Assembly (NCBI GenBank): GCA_903875225.1
Contig: CAIQVJ010000058.1
Span: 62,001-126,000, forward strand
Origin: an uncultured Pseudomonadota bacterium
GTDB lineage: Bacteria > Myxococcota_A > UBA796 > SXON01
Length of the DNA stretch: 64,000 nt
Direction: 5' to 3'
Below are positions 49,080 through 57,294 of the stretch, in pieces. The notes under the pieces were generated by a model. That model saw nothing but the letters and a program-made list of their open reading frames with translations, did no database searches and was not told where the DNA came from. A program made the translations under genes and the position numbers. How positions within the stretch are numbered: the stretch's first letter is position 1; every line of letters starts with the position of its first letter.

Positions 49080-51866
49080 CTAGTACGTGAAGCTCACGCC
49101 CAGATCGGCCACCACCTGGCTCTGGGTGACCTTTGCCGTGCCGCCGGCGCCCGTCGCGAACTTCATCGAGCGGTAGTCCCACCCTGCGCCCAGCCGCAGG
49201 CCCAGGGTGTCCGTGACCCCGTACTGGAAGAACCCGCCCAGCCGCGTGACGCAGGGGAACGGCACGAAGCTCTCGGCGCCTTCGAGGCCGCTGTAGACCT
49301 TGCCCTTCTCGAACGCAGCGATGACGGCCACCCGCGCGCCCATCAGCGGCAGGCCGGCAGGCTTGGCCCCCGTGTAGTTCGCCGTGTAGGTGAACACGTT
49401 GCCGTTGGTGTAGTGGAACGCGAGGCCGCCCTGCACCGAGAGGGGCCCGAACCCGCGCCGGTACCGCGCGCCGGCGATCACGTCGCGGGCGATGGCGATG
49501 CCGGGGGTGTTGAGCACGTTGTACAGTTCCAGGCGCGAGTCAGCGCGCACGTCGATCCCGATGTCCCCGAAGCCCGCGTGGACGGGCCACCACAAGGCGT
49601 CCACGCCGAGGCCGGTGAAGCCGAAGCCGGGGGCGCTGTAGCTCGCACCGCCGAGCAGGCCGCCCTGTCCGTTCGCGGTCATCGTGTAGGAGCCGTGCGC
49701 GTTTTCGAGGGCCGCGCCGATGTAGAGCTTCTTGTAGTCGGTCGCGGCGGCGGTGGTGTGGGTGCGCACTCCCGGGCTGCCGGCTGTGGCGGGATTGCCG
49801 CCGGAGGCTGCGACCGGCGCCGCGACTGCGGCTGCGTTGGAGAGCGTGGGCAGGTCGAGCCGGCCCAGCGCGGACTCTGCCCCTGCGGAGATCGCGAGCG
49901 GGCCGTCCACCCCCGCCGGCAGCTGAGCCGCGAACGTGTAGGAGCCATCGTGGTTGTCGGTGATGGCGCCGACGGTGGCGGGCGCCGCGGAGATGGCGAG
50001 CTTCTGCCCCGGCACGCCCTTGCCGGTGGCGTCGGCCACGCGGACGTTGACGAGGATGTTGGCGCCCGGCGTGGTGTAGGGGGGCACCGTGCTCACGGTC
50101 ACCGAGGCGGGCGGACCGGAGAGCGGTGCAGTCCCGGTGCGGATCACGAGGGTCTCGGGCGCTGCGCCGCGCCACCGGTCGAGCAGCGCGTCGATGTCCG
50201 GCGGGCCGCCCACGGGGATGACCGGGGAGGGGCCGCTGGCCTGCACGATCGGGGCTTCCGTCCACAAGCCGGCGCCCTCGGCGCGAAGAGAAACCAGCCC
50301 CGCCACCTTGCCCGCCCGGAACGTCGTGCGGCCGAGGCCGTGGGCGTCGGTCTTCACCTCGGGCGGCAGGCTCCCGTCCCCATGGGGCACGGAGAGGCGG
50401 ACGGTGACGTTGGGGACGGGCAGCCCGTACGCGTCGAGCGCGAGCACCGTGAGCGACACTGCGTCGGTGCCATTGGCGGCGACGGTGGAGGTGGAGGGCA
50501 GGATGACCAGCCGCACGGGCGCCAGCCCGGTGGCCTCGAGGGACGGGATGCCCCAGACGCGGAGCAGGTTCGTGGTGGCGGAGGTGAGCTTGACGGTGGC
50601 GGTGTAGCTGCCGTCCTTGTTGTCCTTCAACGCGCCGATCACGCCGCCGTCCGCGTAGAGGAAGGGTGTGCGGCCCACGACGGCGGCTCCTGCGCCGTCC
50701 TTGATGCGCGCGGTCACCGCCATGGAGGTGCTCTTGACCGCGATCTCGGCCGGCTCGGTCACGAGGGTCATGCTGCCGGGGGCGGCGACCACGTGCATCG
50801 TCAGCCCGGTCTTGCGGTCGCCGATCGCCGCGGTGAGCACGACGTCTCCGGGGGTGACCGGGGCGGTGAACTTCACCACGAAGCTCTCCGCATCGACAGC
50901 AGGTGCGCTGAGCGTGCCGTTCGTGGCAGTCACCGTGGGGGGATTCGCGGTGCTCATGCCGCCCGCTGAGCTCGTGCCCAGGCGCAGGTCCACCGTGGCG
51001 CCGGTGGGCAGGGTCGTCCGGCCTGCGAGCCACGACACGTCCACGCCGGAGACATCGGGCAGATCGACGTCCTTCTGGACCCGCGAGGTGTCCGGGTTCA
51101 CGCTGGTGAGTTGCCCGCGCGGCTGGCGGGGATCGAGATCGACGTCGAACGCCACCTTTCCGGACGGAGCGGCGATCACCGGGCCGTAGGTGCGATCGCC
51201 GGCGACGAGCACGTTGCTCGAGCCCGCGAGCGCATCGAAGGAAACCGAGCGGCGGGAGACGATCGGCAGGGTCGTCACGCCCCAGACGGAGTCCGGCGCC
51301 GCTGCGTCCCCTGCGCTGATCACGACGGTCATCGGCTTGGTGAGACCCTTCGGCGGCGTGTAGTGCGCTACCCAGGCGCCCCCTCCGGCGGGGGTCAAGG
51401 CGTCGATGGCGCCGGCGGATGCGACGACCTTGAACGAGCGCCCATCCGCCGCGATCGCGCCGGTGCTCTGCGGCTGGATGCGGATCGTCGCCGATCCCGA
51501 GGCCGAGACCACCGGGGGGTCGACCGTGATCGTGACTCGCCCGGTGTTCGTCGGGATCACCGGCACCGGGATCATCGTGTCCTCGCCGTTCAGCGTGACC
51601 TTGAAGTTGACGGCTCCGGCGGCGGTGGCCGCGGCGGGCGTGAACGCGAACGTGATCACGCCGTCCGAGCCGGACACGACGGGCCCGATCTTGCCGCTGT
51701 CAGGCTTGATCTTCGCCTTCGTGCCGCCGCCGCCCTCCACGTAGAGCCGCACGGTCGAGGTCGTGACCCCGTCCGCGACGAGCGGTGCAGTGGGGACGAG
51801 CACGACTCCGGCGAAGGCGGAGTCCATCCAGATCAGCATCGCGCTGAGCAGCGTGAAAGCAGGCAC
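49080..51866 (-). CDS. Ig-like repeat protein with C-terminal outer-membrane beta-barrel
   Basis: 928 residues. Signal peptide MPAFTLLSAMLIWMDSAFA, cleaved before Gly20. Residues about 20-660 hold six or more Ig-like/invasin-type domains, with repeated VTVDPPVV, DGAGAAVVG, NHDGSYTF and NKDGSYTATV elements. Residues about 695-928 look like an 8-strand outer-membrane barrel (alternating pattern, many Tyr/Gly) that ends VVADLGVSFTY, an aromatic C-terminal OMP signal. In intimins and invasins the barrel precedes the Ig domains; here the order is reversed. Likely a surface adhesin or envelope spacer. 47 bp downstream of the predicted selenoprotein. Confidence 0.8.
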   Translation of the reverse strand: MPAFTLLSAMLIWMDSAFAGVVLVPTAPLVADGVTTSTVRLYVEGGGGTKAKIKPDSGKIGPVVSGSDGVITFAFTPAAATAAGAVNFKVTLNGEDTMIPVPVIPTNTGRVTITVDPPVVSASGSATIRIQPQSTGAIAADGRSFKVVASAGAIDALTPAGGGAWVAHYTPPKGLTKPMTVVISAGDAAAPDSVWGVTTLPIVSRRSVSFDALAGSSNVLVAGDRTYGPVIAAPSGKVAFDVDLDPRQPRGQLTSVNPDTSRVQKDVDLPDVSGVDVSWLAGRTTLPTGATVDLRLGTSSAGGMSTANPPTVTATNGTLSAPAVDAESFVVKFTAPVTPGDVVLTAAIGDRKTGLTMHVVAAPGSMTLVTEPAEIAVKSTSMAVTARIKDGAGAAVVGRTPFLYADGGVIGALKDNKDGSYTATVKLTSATTNLLRVWGIPSLEATGLAPVRLVILPSTSTVAANGTDAVSLTVLALDAYGLPVPNVTVRLSVPHGDGSLPPEVKTDAHGLGRTTFRAGKVAGLVSLRAEGAGLWTEAPIVQASGPSPVIPVGGPPDIDALLDRWRGAAPETLVIRTGTAPLSGPPASVTVSTVPPYTTPGANILVNVRVADATGKGVPGQKLAISAAPATVGAITDNHDGSYTFAAQLPAGVDGPLAISAGAESALGRLDLPTLSNAAAVAAPVAASGGNPATAGSPGVRTHTTAAATDYKKLYIGAALENAHGSYTMTANGQGGLLGGASYSAPGFGFTGLGVDALWWPVHAGFGDIGIDVRADSRLELYNVLNTPGIAIARDVIAGARYRRGFGPLSVQGGLAFHYTNGNVFTYTANYTGAKPAGLPLMGARVAVIAAFEKGKVYSGLEGAESFVPFPCVTRLGGFFQYGVTDTLGLRLGAGWDYRSMKFATGAGGTAKVTQSQVVADLGVSFTY

Positions 51867-51913: not shown

Positions 51914-52618
51914 CTACCCGCCGAGCAGCCCGTCCATGTCGCCCACACTGGCGCTCCCGACACTCTCCACCACGACGCCGCGGTCGAGCAGCACGGTGTA
52001 GGGGAGGCCGATGCTGCCGGAGGCGTAGGTGTACATCACCGCCTCGTCCTGATCGGCCAGCACCGGCATGGTCAGCCCGTAGGTGTCGGCCCACTCGCCG
52101 AGCTCATCCACGGACGGCGTCACCGAATCGTTGTTCTCGATCATGATCTCGAGGAACATGCCGCCCTGGGGGATCCGCTCCTGGTACTCTGCTTCGAGGC
52201 CACCGGCCTCGCTCTGGCAGGAGCCTCACCAGAAGGCGGCGAAGACCATGTAAACGACCTGATCGCAGAAGTCGTGCAGCTTGACGGTCTCGCCGAACTG
52301 GTCGAGCATCTCGAAGTTGTTGGCGACCTCTCCCTCGGACTGTCCCGTGGCCTCGACGTCGTCGCGGCAGGAGTCGATCTTCCAGCCGTTCTGGTACGGG
52401 TGGTCGGTCTCGGCGAGCGGGTCGGTGAACTGGTCGACTTCGTCGCCGTCGTTCCAGCCGTCGCCGTCGGAGTCCGGGTTACCGGGGTCGGTGCCCAACG
52501 CTGCCTCGTCGGAGGCGAGCAGGCCGTCCTGATCGCCGTCGGCGTCTGCATCGACCTGCGCGATGCAGCCCATCGCACCGAGCGCCGGGAGGAGGGTGAA
52601 CGGAAGGTACGCTCTCAT
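51914..52618 (-). CDS. predicted selenoprotein: thioredoxin-fold lipoprotein with UGSC redox site and Ca-binding repeats
   Basis: 234 residues if the single in-frame UGA (52226-52228) is read as Sec131. Start ATG 52618 has GGAGGAG 8 bases upstream. Signal peptide ends at MGC (Cys18). Residues about 23-72 are Asp-rich TSP3/EF-hand-like loops (DADADGDQDG, DSDGDGWNDGDE). Residues about 98-234 are a TlpA/AhpC-like thioredoxin fold: VVYMVFAAFW, then U-GSC-QSEA aligning with the usual WCxxC, and the cis-Pro loop GLPYTVLLD. Both halves are in one frame with continuous homology across the UGA, which replaces the nucleophilic Cys. A SECIS-like hairpin follows. Likely a periplasmic or surface thiol-disulfide or peroxide reductase. 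sel genes are not in the window. Confidence 0.82.
52189..52220 (-). promoter_or_regulatory. bacterial SECIS-like hairpin after the in-frame UGA
   Basis: On the coding strand, CGAGGCC pairs perfectly with GGCCTCG around a GGT loop (52195-52211), and CTGC/GCAG extend the stem across a small internal loop. The apical GGU lies 22-24 nt after the UGA, close to its position in the fdhF SECIS of E. coli, where SelB also reads a GGU-containing loop. The stem codons still encode ordinary protein. Confidence 0.7.
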
Positions 52619-52690
52619 GGATTTCTCCTCCGGGTAGAGTAGCACTTTTCGGGAGCAATCGGGTATCCCGAGGGGGAGTTATGTTGCCAA

Positions 52691-53080
52691 ATGTACTCGG
52701 AAGCCCTGCTGGACGCCGTCGCTCGCGCGCGGCACGATCTCGGTAAGTACATCGCGTTCCAGGTCCGCTCGCTCGATCCGGGATCTTCCGACGACGACGT
52801 CCGGTCGGCGCTGGACGCCGATCTCAACCACACGCGTTCGACTCCGGACGCCACGTGCGCCCAGGTCTGGGCGGGCCTGCGCAGCGTGCTGCTCGATGCC
52901 GGATTGAACCCGGGGGAGGTCCATGGCGTCGACGAGGTGATCAGCACCCTCTCCGACCGGGCGGCGCGGCTCGAACACCTGGACTCGGTCGCGCTCGGGT
53001 CCACCGTCGCGCTCTCGCTCGCGCTGGGCGACAGGCTCCGGGCCCTGCACCGCCGGCTGCTGTCCGAGCAACCCGCGTGA
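52691..53080 (+). CDS. small helical protein, first gene of a regulator-kinase operon
   Basis: 129 residues, all-helical by eye, no signal or membrane segment. The N-terminal helix reads MYSEALLDAVARARHDLGKY, so a His sits in an HDLGKY context like some phosphotransfer or dimerisation helices, but I do not recognise the family. Its TGA overlaps the GTG of the NtrC-type regulator by 4 bp, and the kinase-like gene follows, so a phosphorelay or anti-factor role is possible. Divergent from the selenoprotein gene with a 72-bp gap. Confidence 0.75.
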   Translation: MYSEALLDAVARARHDLGKYIAFQVRSLDPGSSDDDVRSALDADLNHTRSTPDATCAQVWAGLRSVLLDAGLNPGEVHGVDEVISTLSDRAARLEHLDSVALGSTVALSLALGDRLRALHRRLLSEQPA

Positions 53081-54681
53081 GCACGCTGCTCGTCATCGAC
53101 GATCAAGACCGGCACATCGAACTCTGTCGGCGCGCCATCCCCGAGCACACCTACCTCGGGCCCGCCCGTTCCTGGCGCGAGGCAGTCACGATCCTGAAGG
53201 CGGAGCGCCGGAACATCGACGTCGTGCTGCTCGACGTCAACTTCGACATCCCACCGGAGCAGCTCCTCGGCCTCCCGCCGGACCCGGACGAGCGGACGCT
53301 CGCCCGCGTTCGTCGGCGCCAGGGGCTCGAGATCCTCGCCCGGCTGCGTCGCGCGCTGCCGGATCTCCCCGTGCTGCTGATGACAGCGCGGGAGGAGGTC
53401 GATCTCTCCCGCGCGGCCGAGCGGCTCGGCGCGGAGGAATACACCTGGTTCCTCGACGACGACTACGTGGACGCCCGCTCGCTCCGCGTGCAGATCGAGA
53501 ACATCCTCTCGGCTCGTCGCGGCCAGGAGGCCGAGGGCCCGATCTACTGGGGAAAAAGCCCCACGATGCGACGGGTACGCGCCCGACTGGCGCTCCTCGC
53601 CAGGGGCCGCCTTCCCGTGATCCTCGGCGGTCCGACCGGGTCCGGCAAGTCGCTGCTCGCGCGCCACTACATCCACCCACGCTCCGGGCGGAAGGGGAGG
53701 TTCGTCTCGCTCGATCTCTCCACCGTCCCGCGGGATCTCCAGGGGGCACAGCTCTTCGGCTCCTCGCGCGGGGCCTACACCGGCTCCGTCGCCGACCGGA
53801 AGGGCGCTTTCGAAGAGGCTGACGGCGGGACGCTCTTTCTGGACGAGATCGGGAACCTGCCGGAAGACGCGCAGAAGATGCTGCTTGGCGTGCTGCAGGA
53901 GGGGACGGTCACCCGCATCGGAGACACCCAGGACCGCAAGGTGGACGTGAAGCTCGTCGTCGCCACGCACGAGGATCTGGGCGCCATGGTGCGCGAGGGT
54001 CGGTTCCGCGCAGACCTCTACATGCGGCTCAACCCCGCGTGCACGGTGGTGCTCCCCGCGATGCACACCCGCCGCGGGGACCTGGTGGGGCTCGTCGCCT
54101 GGCTCGGTCGGCGCGCCCTCGGGGGATCCCAGCTCTCGGGTCTCGTCACCGAATACCGGCAGCGGGCGGGCCTGCCTGTCGACGCGCCCACCGTTTTCGC
54201 GATCGGGGGAACGCTCCCGCCGGTCACCCCCGGCGAGCTCACGGTGTACCTGCCCGGTCGCTCGCTCGCGTTGCTTCGCGCCTACCCCTGGCCGGGCAAC
54301 CTGCGTGAGCTGGCGATGACCGTCGAGAACGCGCTCACCTTCACGTTTGCAGAGATGTTCGGCCTGCCCCTTGGCGGCCGTGGCGACCTCGTCCTGGTGC
54401 GCCCCAAGCTGGTTCGTGACCTGCTCCGGGCGGTGCGCGTGGGGGGGGAGGCCCCCACGGACGGGGTCACCCTGCCCGTCTGCCTTCGGCCCCAGGAAAC
54501 GCTGAATGGCGTGTCTGTCGACGTGGAACGGCAGTACTTCACGCGGCTGTGGGAGCAGGAGGACGGCGATTTTGCCGCGATCGCCCGTGTGCTCCTGGGT
54601 GACCCCGTCCACGCCCGAAAGGTGCAGCTCCGCTTCAATCAGCTCGGGCTCAAGGTTCGGGAGCTCCGGGGCGGGAAGTAG
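53077..54681 (+). CDS. NtrC-family sigma-54-dependent response regulator
   Basis: 534 residues from GTG 53077. N-terminal receiver-like domain (1-150): Asp8/Asp9 and Asp53 are present but the conserved Lys is missing (YTWFLDDDY), and an insertion of about 20 residues follows Asp53. AAA+ domain (about 160-430): Walker A GGPTGSGKS (184-192), Walker B GTLFLDEIGNLP, and the sigma-54 contact loop GAFTGA written GAYTGS (232-237). C-terminal Fis-like HTH (about 490-534). Probably activates sigma-54 promoters under control of the TPR kinase encoded next. GAYTGS variation could weaken sigma-54 contact. Confidence 0.88.
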   Translation: MSTLLVIDDQDRHIELCRRAIPEHTYLGPARSWREAVTILKAERRNIDVVLLDVNFDIPPEQLLGLPPDPDERTLARVRRRQGLEILARLRRALPDLPVLLMTAREEVDLSRAAERLGAEEYTWFLDDDYVDARSLRVQIENILSARRGQEAEGPIYWGKSPTMRRVRARLALLARGRLPVILGGPTGSGKSLLARHYIHPRSGRKGRFVSLDLSTVPRDLQGAQLFGSSRGAYTGSVADRKGAFEEADGGTLFLDEIGNLPEDAQKMLLGVLQEGTVTRIGDTQDRKVDVKLVVATHEDLGAMVREGRFRADLYMRLNPACTVVLPAMHTRRGDLVGLVAWLGRRALGGSQLSGLVTEYRQRAGLPVDAPTVFAIGGTLPPVTPGELTVYLPGRSLALLRAYPWPGNLRELAMTVENALTFTFAEMFGLPLGGRGDLVLVRPKLVRDLLRAVRVGGEAPTDGVTLPVCLRPQETLNGVSVDVERQYFTRLWEQEDGDFAAIARVLLGDPVHARKVQLRFNQLGLKVRELRGGK

Positions 54682-57294
54682 GTGCTCCTGTGGATCGCAC
54701 TCGCCCTGGCCGCGCCCGAGGACGCGCTCGATCCGGTCAGCGCACGGTTTTTTGCGCAGGCGACTGCGGACGAGGAGGCCGGCAGGTGGTCCTCCGCCGA
54801 GGCCGGCTACAAGCTCGTACACGGGAATGACGCGACCTTTCTCCCCGCGAGCCTCGGGCTCGCGCGGGCGCTCCTGGCCCAGGGTCACGCCGATCAGGCC
54901 GAGGCGCTGTACCGGTCGCTCGGCCTCGATCCCGACGCCGTAGAGGCCCTGGCGAGGCTGGTGGAGCCCCGGTCGCCCGCCGAGGCGTTGGGGCTGTGGA
55001 CGCAGTTGGAGACCCTCCGGCTCGGTGACCCGGGCCCGTGGTGCGCGGAGGCGCGGCTCCGGGCCCCGCTCGACGAAGGGCTCGAGGCGGCGCTGTCTGC
55101 GTGGGATCGGTGCGCCGTGCTCAGCGGGACCACCGCCCCCGACCTCGCGCCGTTGGACGTGATCCTCGACGTGCTGGCGCCCGCCGGAGTCGCGCTCGAC
55201 CCCGACAAGAGCGTCCAGGCGACCGCGCTGCTGGACGACGCCATCCGACGCTGGCCTGCGGTCGAACCCCTGCTGCAACCCCGCCGCGACCGGCTGGAGA
55301 TCGAGCGCTCGGCCCGGGACGTGGTGCTCGGCGGCTCTGTCGAGCTCTCGGGAGACGACACGGCGCGGATCCGGGAGGCGCGCGCCTTGTTGGTCACGGA
55401 CCCTGCGAGAGCCCGTGCGATCGCGGAGTCGATCGTGGGGCGCGCCCCCCGATCGGCAGAGGCTCACGCCGTGCTCTCCGACGCCGCCTGGGGGATCGAC
55501 TGGTCGGATGCCGAGGTGCACGCGCTGCTTGCCCGGGATCTCGATCCCGACGACGCCTCGAACCACCTGCGCGTCGCGCGCATCCTCCACGCCGCCTACG
55601 CCGGCCGGCGCGACGCCGAGGCCCTCACGGCGCTCCGGCAGGCAGCTGCGCTGCGCCCCGACGAGCCCGCGATCCTGCTGCAGCTCGCGGAGCTCGAGAG
55701 CGCCCGGGGCGAATGGGATCGCGCCGAAGCCGCGCTCGTGCGCTGGCTCCAGATCAACCCCGATACGACGCTCTCGGCGGCGGTCCAGGCCCGGCTGGAA
55801 GGCCTGCGCCGCGCCCCTCCGCCAGCGCGCACCCTGCCTCCCGTCACCCCGCCGGGGATCCCCGACGAGGCGCTCGCCGCGTGGCGCATCGCGCGTGTCT
55901 ACCTCGATCGTGGGGACCTCGCAGGCGCACGGGCCGAGCTCGACGTCGCGCTGGCGAGCGCCCCGAAGGTGCCCGCGTTGATGAACCTCGACGCTCGCCT
56001 GCGTCGTGAGTCCGGCGACGTGAAGGGCGCCATCCGGGCCTGGGAGGCCAGCCTCGCGGTCGACCCGGGGCAGGGGGACGTACAGCTCGCGCTCGGGGAG
56101 ACGCTCGACGCAAAGGGTGAGCCCGAGTCCGCCCTCGAGCACTACCGGCGCGCGGCCGAGGCGGGCGAGGCAGACGCGCATTTCTTCCTGGCGCGCTCCG
56201 CCGACACGGTCGGGGACTGGCAGACCGTCCAGAAGGAGCTCCAGGCCTTCGACAGCGCCGGCGGGCATGGTTCCCTGTACGCGGTCGCGGCTGGCGATCT
56301 CGCTGCCAAGGCCCACCGCCACGTCCTGACCGTGCGCGCTGTCGGGGCCGGGTTGCTGGTCGCAGTCGCCGGGCTGCCGCTCACCTGGCTCCTCTGGAGG
56401 CGCGGAGGCGTGGGCCTGCGCCAGATGCTGGACCAGGCCCCGGGCTCCTGGCACGACGCCGCTCGCATCCTCGCGGCGGTGCGTCACGAGGTGCTCAAGC
56501 ACAACACGACGGTGCTCCCGGACATCGCCGGGGCCCTCGAACACGGAGACGGCACCTCCTGGGAGGCGTGGCGCGGTGGGGCGGGTGACCTCCTCGCCCG
56601 GTTCGACGGGTACGTCGGGGCGCTGGAGTCGCTCGGCGCCCAGCACGGCGTGCGACTCGCTGCCGATCGCGATCCCATCCTGGCGCCGATGCGTGCTTCG
56701 CTCAAGGCGCTCGTTCGTGCCTCCCGCCGGGGGCGGGCTCCCCGCCCCGCGGATCTGCGCGCCCACAGCGAGGTGCTCAACGGCGAGGGGTACACCGCCC
56801 TGGGCACGCTCGTCACCGAGATCTGCATCCTCCCCGTGACCGCCGAGCACATCGAAAAGGTCTACGCGCGGGTGGCCGCCGAGCCGGGATTCGGAGGCGA
56901 CACGGCGCCGCTCACGGTCTCCGGCGAGCCGGGGCAGGTCCGGCTCTTTCGGGGAGACCTCGAGGACATCCTCGCGAACCTGTTCCGGAACGCGCTGGCC
57001 GCGGGAGCGACGCGGGTTGCGGTGGTCCTGGGGGAGGACAGCGACCCGATCACCGGCCATGCCTGGTTCGAGATCCGCGTGGAGGACGATGCGCCGGGGC
57101 AGCTCACCACCGCCATGATCCGCGGTCGCTACATCTCGCGTGGGCTCGGGCTGGCCGTGGACATGCTCAACCGTCATGGTGGGACAATCCGTGTGGATGC
57201 CCCCGCGGGCGCGCCCGGAGCCCGCCCCCACAAGGCCGTCGTCGTACAACTGCCCTCGGTGGAGGCAGCGTCCGTGGAGGTGGAGTGGAAGTGA
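54682..57294 (+). CDS. histidine kinase with extracytoplasmic TPR sensor array
   Basis: 870 residues, GTG start directly after the previous stop. A short signal-like N-terminus (LLWIALALAA) is followed by about 500 residues of TPR-type repeats, one transmembrane segment (about 552-573, VGAGLLVAVAGLPLTWLLW) and a cytoplasmic kinase part. His602 in AAVRHEVLKHNTTVL is the likely phosphoacceptor; the N box ANLFRNALAAGA (about 765) and RGLGLAVDMLNRHGG mark a GHKL ATPase. The TPRs would thus face the periplasm, an uncommon sensor. Expected partner is the NtrC-type regulator immediately upstream. Confidence 0.8.
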   Translation: MLLWIALALAAPEDALDPVSARFFAQATADEEAGRWSSAEAGYKLVHGNDATFLPASLGLARALLAQGHADQAEALYRSLGLDPDAVEALARLVEPRSPAEALGLWTQLETLRLGDPGPWCAEARLRAPLDEGLEAALSAWDRCAVLSGTTAPDLAPLDVILDVLAPAGVALDPDKSVQATALLDDAIRRWPAVEPLLQPRRDRLEIERSARDVVLGGSVELSGDDTARIREARALLVTDPARARAIAESIVGRAPRSAEAHAVLSDAAWGIDWSDAEVHALLARDLDPDDASNHLRVARILHAAYAGRRDAEALTALRQAAALRPDEPAILLQLAELESARGEWDRAEAALVRWLQINPDTTLSAAVQARLEGLRRAPPPARTLPPVTPPGIPDEALAAWRIARVYLDRGDLAGARAELDVALASAPKVPALMNLDARLRRESGDVKGAIRAWEASLAVDPGQGDVQLALGETLDAKGEPESALEHYRRAAEAGEADAHFFLARSADTVGDWQTVQKELQAFDSAGGHGSLYAVAAGDLAAKAHRHVLTVRAVGAGLLVAVAGLPLTWLLWRRGGVGLRQMLDQAPGSWHDAARILAAVRHEVLKHNTTVLPDIAGALEHGDGTSWEAWRGGAGDLLARFDGYVGALESLGAQHGVRLAADRDPILAPMRASLKALVRASRRGRAPRPADLRAHSEVLNGEGYTALGTLVTEICILPVTAEHIEKVYARVAAEPGFGGDTAPLTVSGEPGQVRLFRGDLEDILANLFRNALAAGATRVAVVLGEDSDPITGHAWFEIRVEDDAPGQLTTAMIRGRYISRGLGLAVDMLNRHGGTIRVDAPAGAPGARPHKAVVVQLPSVEAASVEVEWK

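Follow-up and report, generated by a model that had tools for sequence, protein, structure and literature searches.

The UGA-containing gene and its neighbours

On the minus strand of the window, by which we mean the whole stretch of 64,000 nucleotides that was analysed, a frame of 234 residues runs from 52618 to 51914. It opens with an ATG at 52618, downstream of a ribosome-binding site that was read directly (GGAGGAGA, 52624..52631, minus strand), it ends with TAG, and it contains a single TGA, codon 131, at 52228-52226. This lone in-frame UGA had been claimed in an earlier note on the same DNA and was found again when the frame was re-read. As judged from the sequence reading and the homologues, the whole gene (51914..52618, minus strand) comprises 234 codons, one of them the UGA, plus the TAG, and the UGA stop is very probably read as selenocysteine (Sec), which would lie in the active site of the exported, thioredoxin-like product.

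At its N-terminus, the protein has a short signal peptide that leads to Cys18 (52565..52618, minus strand, with the Cys18 codon at 52567-52565), as located by alignment and pattern. Cys18 is aligned in 104 of 105 homologues; the strict lipobox pattern is found in 53 of 108 proteins, and the window protein lies outside it, with the non-canonical form GAMGC. Lipid anchoring at Cys18 is graded as probable, on sequence grounds. Residues 25-68 (52415..52546, minus strand) form TSP3-type acidic repeats with two loops, ADGDQDG and DSDGDGWNDG, which the earlier note had described as TSP3/EF-hand-like and which were read there again. The Pfam family TSP3_bac scored 20.6 bits on the window protein, below its cut-off of 25, and matched 22 of the 25 members of alignment A1 at E <= 0.01, and a TSP3-type motif is found in 100 of 108 proteins. 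Judged by its sequence, this linker is probably a calcium-binding spacer.

The linker is followed by a conserved Cys84 (52367..52369, minus strand) and by a redoxin domain of thioredoxin fold, residues 95-234 (51917..52336, minus strand), delimited by Pfam, structure matches and a structure model. Pfam AhpC-TSA matches residues 96-217 (E 2.4e-14, 53.8 bits against a cut-off of 26) and Redoxin scores 32.2 bits against a cut-off of 26.6. Within this domain lie a conserved Cys118 (52265..52267, minus strand) and the active-site context FAAFW-U-GSC, in which the UGA codon for Sec131 (52226..52228, minus strand) occupies the first position of a UxxC motif, and the resolving Cys134 (52217..52219, minus strand) the last. 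A bSECIS-type hairpin (52195..52211, minus strand) and cis-Pro206 (52001..52003, minus strand) are found further downstream. The structure model of the protein is confident (mean pLDDT 92.1), and its best solved match is the ResA-type oxidoreductase 4nmu (TM 0.82 by target length, 23% identity). The nearest solved structure by sequence is also of the ResA type, and the predicted fold is ResA-like.

Located 47 nt downstream, a 928-residue protein with Invasin_D3/Big_1 Ig-like domains by Pfam is encoded at 49080..51866 on the minus strand; a similar protein accompanies the homologue in 15 of the 29 relative loci compared, and in one of these 15 (L024) the match is to another part. Divergently, on the plus strand, a gene for 129 residues without a Pfam match (52691..53080) is kept in 17 of 29 loci; a further gene (53077..54681), for a response regulator that has a sigma-54 activation domain, is kept in 16 of 29, at 72-89% identity. 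Because these loci are short and some lie at contig ends, the absence of a neighbour says little. A tRNA-Ser (gga) was called by ARAGORN at 56595-56670, inside the frame of a TPR protein (54682-57294), perhaps as a false call.

Homologues, selection and the hairpin past the UGA codon

The search for homologues covered 141 related genomes, namely 71 of the same class and 70 others of the phylum. Among the matches listed, homologues were found in 74 genomes, comprising 70 of the 71 of the class (all but G053) and 4 of the 70 others. Roughly by rank among these matches, 110 loci were read, and a partial match on the L076 contig was not taken as separate. The aligned codon was TGA in 72 loci, Cys in 33 (with one gene present twice, as L044 and L139) and another residue in 5. 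Removal of the duplicate L139 and of two UGA fragments at contig ends (L019 and L090) left a set of 107 homologues, in which the column holds UGA in 70, Cys in 32, Ser in 2, Asp in 2 and a poorly aligned residue (Glu or Pro) in one.

The placement of the UGA at the first Cys of the thioredoxin CxxC motif, as proposed in the earlier note, is borne out by this column, and Cys at the UGA position in relatives, which the same note had named as support for its reading, is present in 32 of the 107. Its further statement that homology continues on both sides of the UGA down to the cis-Pro loop also holds, given that the AhpC-TSA match spans the UGA and that, of the 107 homologues, 103 retain the second Cys and 106 the cis-Pro; Cys84 and Cys118 are each kept in 88 of the 107. 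Relatives that end before the GSC motif would have spoken against the reading, and the homologues run on past this motif. In the five genus genomes, the best homologue of each (L015-L019) has an in-frame TGA at the aligned codon, which goes beyond chance. Neither TAA nor TAG was found inside the local alignments of the 110 loci, and a second TGA was present in two of them, ahead of the start codon in L031 and as the final stop in L073. The tetrapeptide varies among homologues (UGSC, but also UGAC, UGTC, UPSC, USAC and others), so that UGSC, judged by sequence, does not define the family.

A query made of the redoxin part by itself gave matches in 95 of 377 genomes of the phylum, including three genomes outside the class (G150, G313 and G262) whose matches, as found by this search, have one TGA inside. 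A contig scan with A1 was keyed on a TSP3 pattern only, and the proteins that it found matched mostly over the TSP3 part. Tandem copies occur in several genomes among the matches listed. In five paralogues (L105, L072, L073, L076 and L104), the position of Sec is taken by Ser, Asp or some other residue, and from their sequences these are probably without redox activity; among the matches listed, G015 has four tandem copies, of which the last, L105, has Asp at this position and lies beside Sec copies.

Selection was compared on the two sides of the UGA in six pairs of the four full-length genus genes, with codons 1-22 left out. The dN/dS values ranged from 0.15 to 0.34 before the UGA and from 0.15 to 0.53 after it, being higher after the UGA in all six pairs, although nearly equal in one. 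Purifying selection acts on the stretch past the UGA, though somewhat less strongly than ahead of it.

The hairpin of the window gene, CGAGGCC-GGU-GGCCUCG, has a perfect 7-bp stem and a loop that begins 21 nt after the UGA; its stem and loop lengths, its loop G and its spacing agree with the bSECIS rules given in PMC13188914. Stems were searched over the 51 nt past the codon, accepting perfect stems with a loop of 3-6 nt, a G in the first two loop positions and a distance of 15 to 36 nt between codon and loop. At 6 bp or longer, such stems were found in 62 of 70 UGA genes, compared to 2 of 32 Cys genes and none of the 5 others. The stem was longer than in synonymous shuffles (p <= 0.05) in 19 of 70 UGA genes and in 0 of 32 Cys genes, the window's own stem not being rare among its synonymous shuffles (p 0.155). 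UGA and Cys genes are not told apart by whole-segment folding energy (mean z -0.18 and -0.15), a result that, like the one on the window's own stem, counts against the hairpin; the argument therefore relies on stems counted by rule and on covariation.

Two registers of the hairpin were followed. Pairing holds in 97.5% of the cells of register A (34 genes), with 11 cells changed on both sides, and in 87.5% of those of register B (11 genes, loop GGA, 29 nt away), with 12 so changed. In neither register did any of 500 shuffles attain the pairing or the covariation score of the real genes, and slid versions were far below; these figures lean towards structure, since the underlying gene sets, A2 and A3, were picked by the best stem in that register. 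In the same two registers, the Cys genes pair at 39% and 43%, the same as their own shuffles. The unselected comparison is the stem count in UGA against Cys genes, and the strength of the hairpin lies in this comparison and in the covariation. In four homologues (L107, L109, L111 and L127), the hairpin past the UGA has the loop context CCAGGUCUGG, similar to the loop at the apex of the fdhF SECIS in E. coli.

On a quick tree of 142 columns, from which the active-site columns were omitted, the Sec/Cys label requires at least 10 changes, or 14 if the five other forms are given a state of their own; labels that had been shuffled gave means of 27.6 to 32.2 changes and none as low as observed. With 37 of the 104 inner branches of this quick, 142-column tree open, the count of changes is a rough one. 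The family offers a natural experiment on the exchange of Sec and Cys, in which the hairpin accompanies Sec.

Selenium machinery in the window genome and its class

A genome search for selA, selB, selC and selD had been put forward in the earlier note as a check, and all four were present in the window genome (7.19 Mb in 137 contigs, 94.8% complete). The tRNA-Sec (selC) with anticodon TCA scored 66.9 bits against a cut-off of 47, selB 305.5 against 242 and selA 459.1 against 268, and selD gave two matches (L046 and L047) of 421 and 231 bits against a cut-off of 125. The second selD match, of 231 bits, sits in a 702-residue open frame and is perhaps a fusion protein for this reason.

Among the 141 relatives, selA was detected at E <= 1e-30 in 96. 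Eleven genomes of the class were without a selA match (G009, G016, G019, G020, G040, G042, G044, G053, G055, G056 and G060). In G009, G016, G019 and G020, both selB and tRNA-Sec were over the cut-off, and in G040 selB was, but not tRNA-Sec; selA may therefore just be missing from these assemblies. No selA match was found in G042 and G044 (97% and 98% complete), nor did selB or tRNA-Sec exceed the cut-off there, and the one copy read in each has Cys, in support of the Sec reading. Likewise, G053 and G055 had no selA match and neither selB nor tRNA-Sec over the cut-off. In G056 and G060 (77% and 83% complete) UGA forms are present, yet no selA match was obtained and neither selB nor tRNA-Sec passed the cut-off, which counts against the Sec reading.

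The window genome contains another candidate at C54:120745-121101, about 6 kb from selA. It encodes a secreted Bcp/peroxiredoxin-like protein (L226) with an Asp-rich linker and the motif TSG-UGA-TAEGC, and a hairpin with a 9-pair stem follows the UGA. From its sequence, this is likely a second selenoprotein of the genome.

Function, alternative readings and known relatives

The explanation that we favour for the whole of the data, at a probability of roughly 0.85, is that the gene encodes an exported, probably anchored thiol-disulfide oxidoreductase of the ResA/TlpA kind, with the UGA as Sec131; it draws on sequence and on the structure model. The hairpin just past the UGA, together with SelB and tRNA-Sec, would direct the insertion of Sec131, and the protein would then be anchored outside the cytoplasm, probably at the membrane, with its TSP3-type linker as a probable calcium-binding spacer. 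By analogy with its fold family, Sec131 may attack a periplasmic or cell-surface client at a disulfide or an oxidised thiol, and the mixed selenosulfide that this would form may be resolved by Cys134. Electrons could arrive via a membrane protein of the DsbD/CcdA type, and one DsbD_TM protein (160.3 bits) is present in the window genome.

If the UGA, which is a stop in table 11, were a real stop here, the product would be a TSP3 protein of 130 residues that lacks the active site, and what follows would be either a remnant in decay or a small gene of its own, for which an ATG at 52159 opens an ORF of 81 residues. A start at 52159 would, however, drop the UxxC motif, the UGA sits exactly at the column of the catalytic Cys in 70 of 107 homologues, selection acts downstream of it, the hairpin tracks it, and the sel genes are present, so that the UGA was rejected as the end of the gene on account of its exact column, the selection beyond it and the hairpin, and such an ending is highly improbable. 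A further reading, in which a changed code or general read-through puts some ordinary amino acid, for instance Trp, at the UGA, has a single point in its favour, namely that the frame remains open. Against it, the homologues without UGA have Cys, not Trp, in 32 of 37 cases, the UGA-specific hairpin and the anticodon TCA of the tRNA-Sec point to Sec, and UGA also terminates many of these same frames, which leaves this reading with hardly any probability at all.

The main functional rival accepts Sec and assigns the protein mainly to the thiol peroxidases, like peroxiredoxins or glutathione peroxidases, instead of the disulfide oxidoreductases. AhpC-TSA is indeed the best Pfam match, and 11 of the 25 A1 members weakly match GSHPx and 14 of the 25 the thiol peroxidase family PRK09437. 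Against this, the motif is UxxC, whereas the Sec peroxiredoxins catalogued in Table 1 of PMC13188914 carry TxxU, the nearest solved structures by sequence and by fold are of the ResA type, and the NCBIfam model for ResA is matched by all 25 members, though the window protein is far below its cut-off. A mainly peroxidatic role is unlikely, and a disulfide oxidoreductase with Sec131 is preferred.

The known families closest to the protein were compared with it by motif and profile. Over NCBIfam, the window protein had no match above a cut-off. Bacillus ResA (4nmu and 1st9), the nearest solved structure by sequence and by fold, shares 23% identity and, as judged from the domain family, has Cys where the window protein has Sec; because the window protein scored 48.7 bits against a cut-off of 170 for NCBIfam ResA (NF002854), it was not filed as ResA itself. 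The TUGYCR redoxin (NF053656) was rejected at 14.6 bits against a cut-off of 100, and a Sec peroxiredoxin was rejected on the motif, which is FW-U-GSC without TxxU. The UGSC-containing selenoprotein NF041046 has the tetrapeptide UGSC in common with the window protein, but no match of the latter was obtained at E <= 1, and NF041046 is not among the 20 families listed for the 25 members. The ResA-like NF041054 (WAxxUGC), which was weakly matched by 11 of the 25 members (best E 1.2e-7) and gave no match on the window protein at E <= 1, is perhaps the nearest named selenoprotein relative by sequence; the window protein differs from it, and from the UGC-containing TlpA selenoproteins, in having UxxC and not UGC.

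The text of PMC13188914 counts 119 prokaryotic selenoprotein families or subfamilies, including UxxC proteins with PF00578, PF08534 and cd02966, and the text of PMC2398784 describes large Trx-like and Prx-like UxxC families with several domain fusions. In Table 1 of PMC13188914, the Prx-like thiol:disulfide oxidoreductase (PF00578, UxxC) and the Redoxin family protein (PF08534, UxxC) have the same domains and the same Sec position as the window protein, and the thiol-disulfide isomerase-like protein (cd02966, UxxC) and the UGC-containing TlpA selenoproteins have a ResA/TlpA-like domain in common with it. Compared by description to the catalogued PF00578 and PF08534 UxxC families, the window family adds an N-terminal TSP3-type linker with a signal sequence, a distribution in one class, probably of the Myxococcota, and conserved neighbours. 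The terms 'myxo' and 'lipoprotein' are absent from the main text of PMC13188914, no TSP3 fusion is named in the text of section 9 of PMC2398784, and a term look-up found no 'Myxococc' in PMC12013277 and PMC5029168. In the literature searched, no description of a selenoprotein in Myxococcota or myxobacteria, with TSP3, or as a TlpA-type lipoprotein was found, and journals outside this search may have one. The claim of the earlier note stands: the architecture of a TSP3 linker with a Sec-redoxin, spread through one Myxococcota class with conserved neighbours, is not found described in the papers and libraries searched, although existing catalogues already hold UxxC selenoproteins that share its redoxin domains.

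A broader proposal, which we regard as tentative and somewhat doubtful, is that this Myxococcota class runs a dedicated extracytoplasmic seleno-redox system. Anchored Sec-thioredoxins on calcium-bound TSP3 spacers, found class-wide and repeatedly duplicated, would be linked with an Ig-like surface protein and a sigma-54 regulator; exchanges between Sec and Cys would have been frequent, and Sec would be accompanied by bSECIS hairpins of different registers. Among the matches listed, a homologue in 70 of 71 class genomes and UGA in 70 of 107 genes amount to a large added branch of exported selenoproteins. Where gene callers take UGA for a stop, the catalytic half of such proteins would be missed, as is seen in the cut ORF at this locus.
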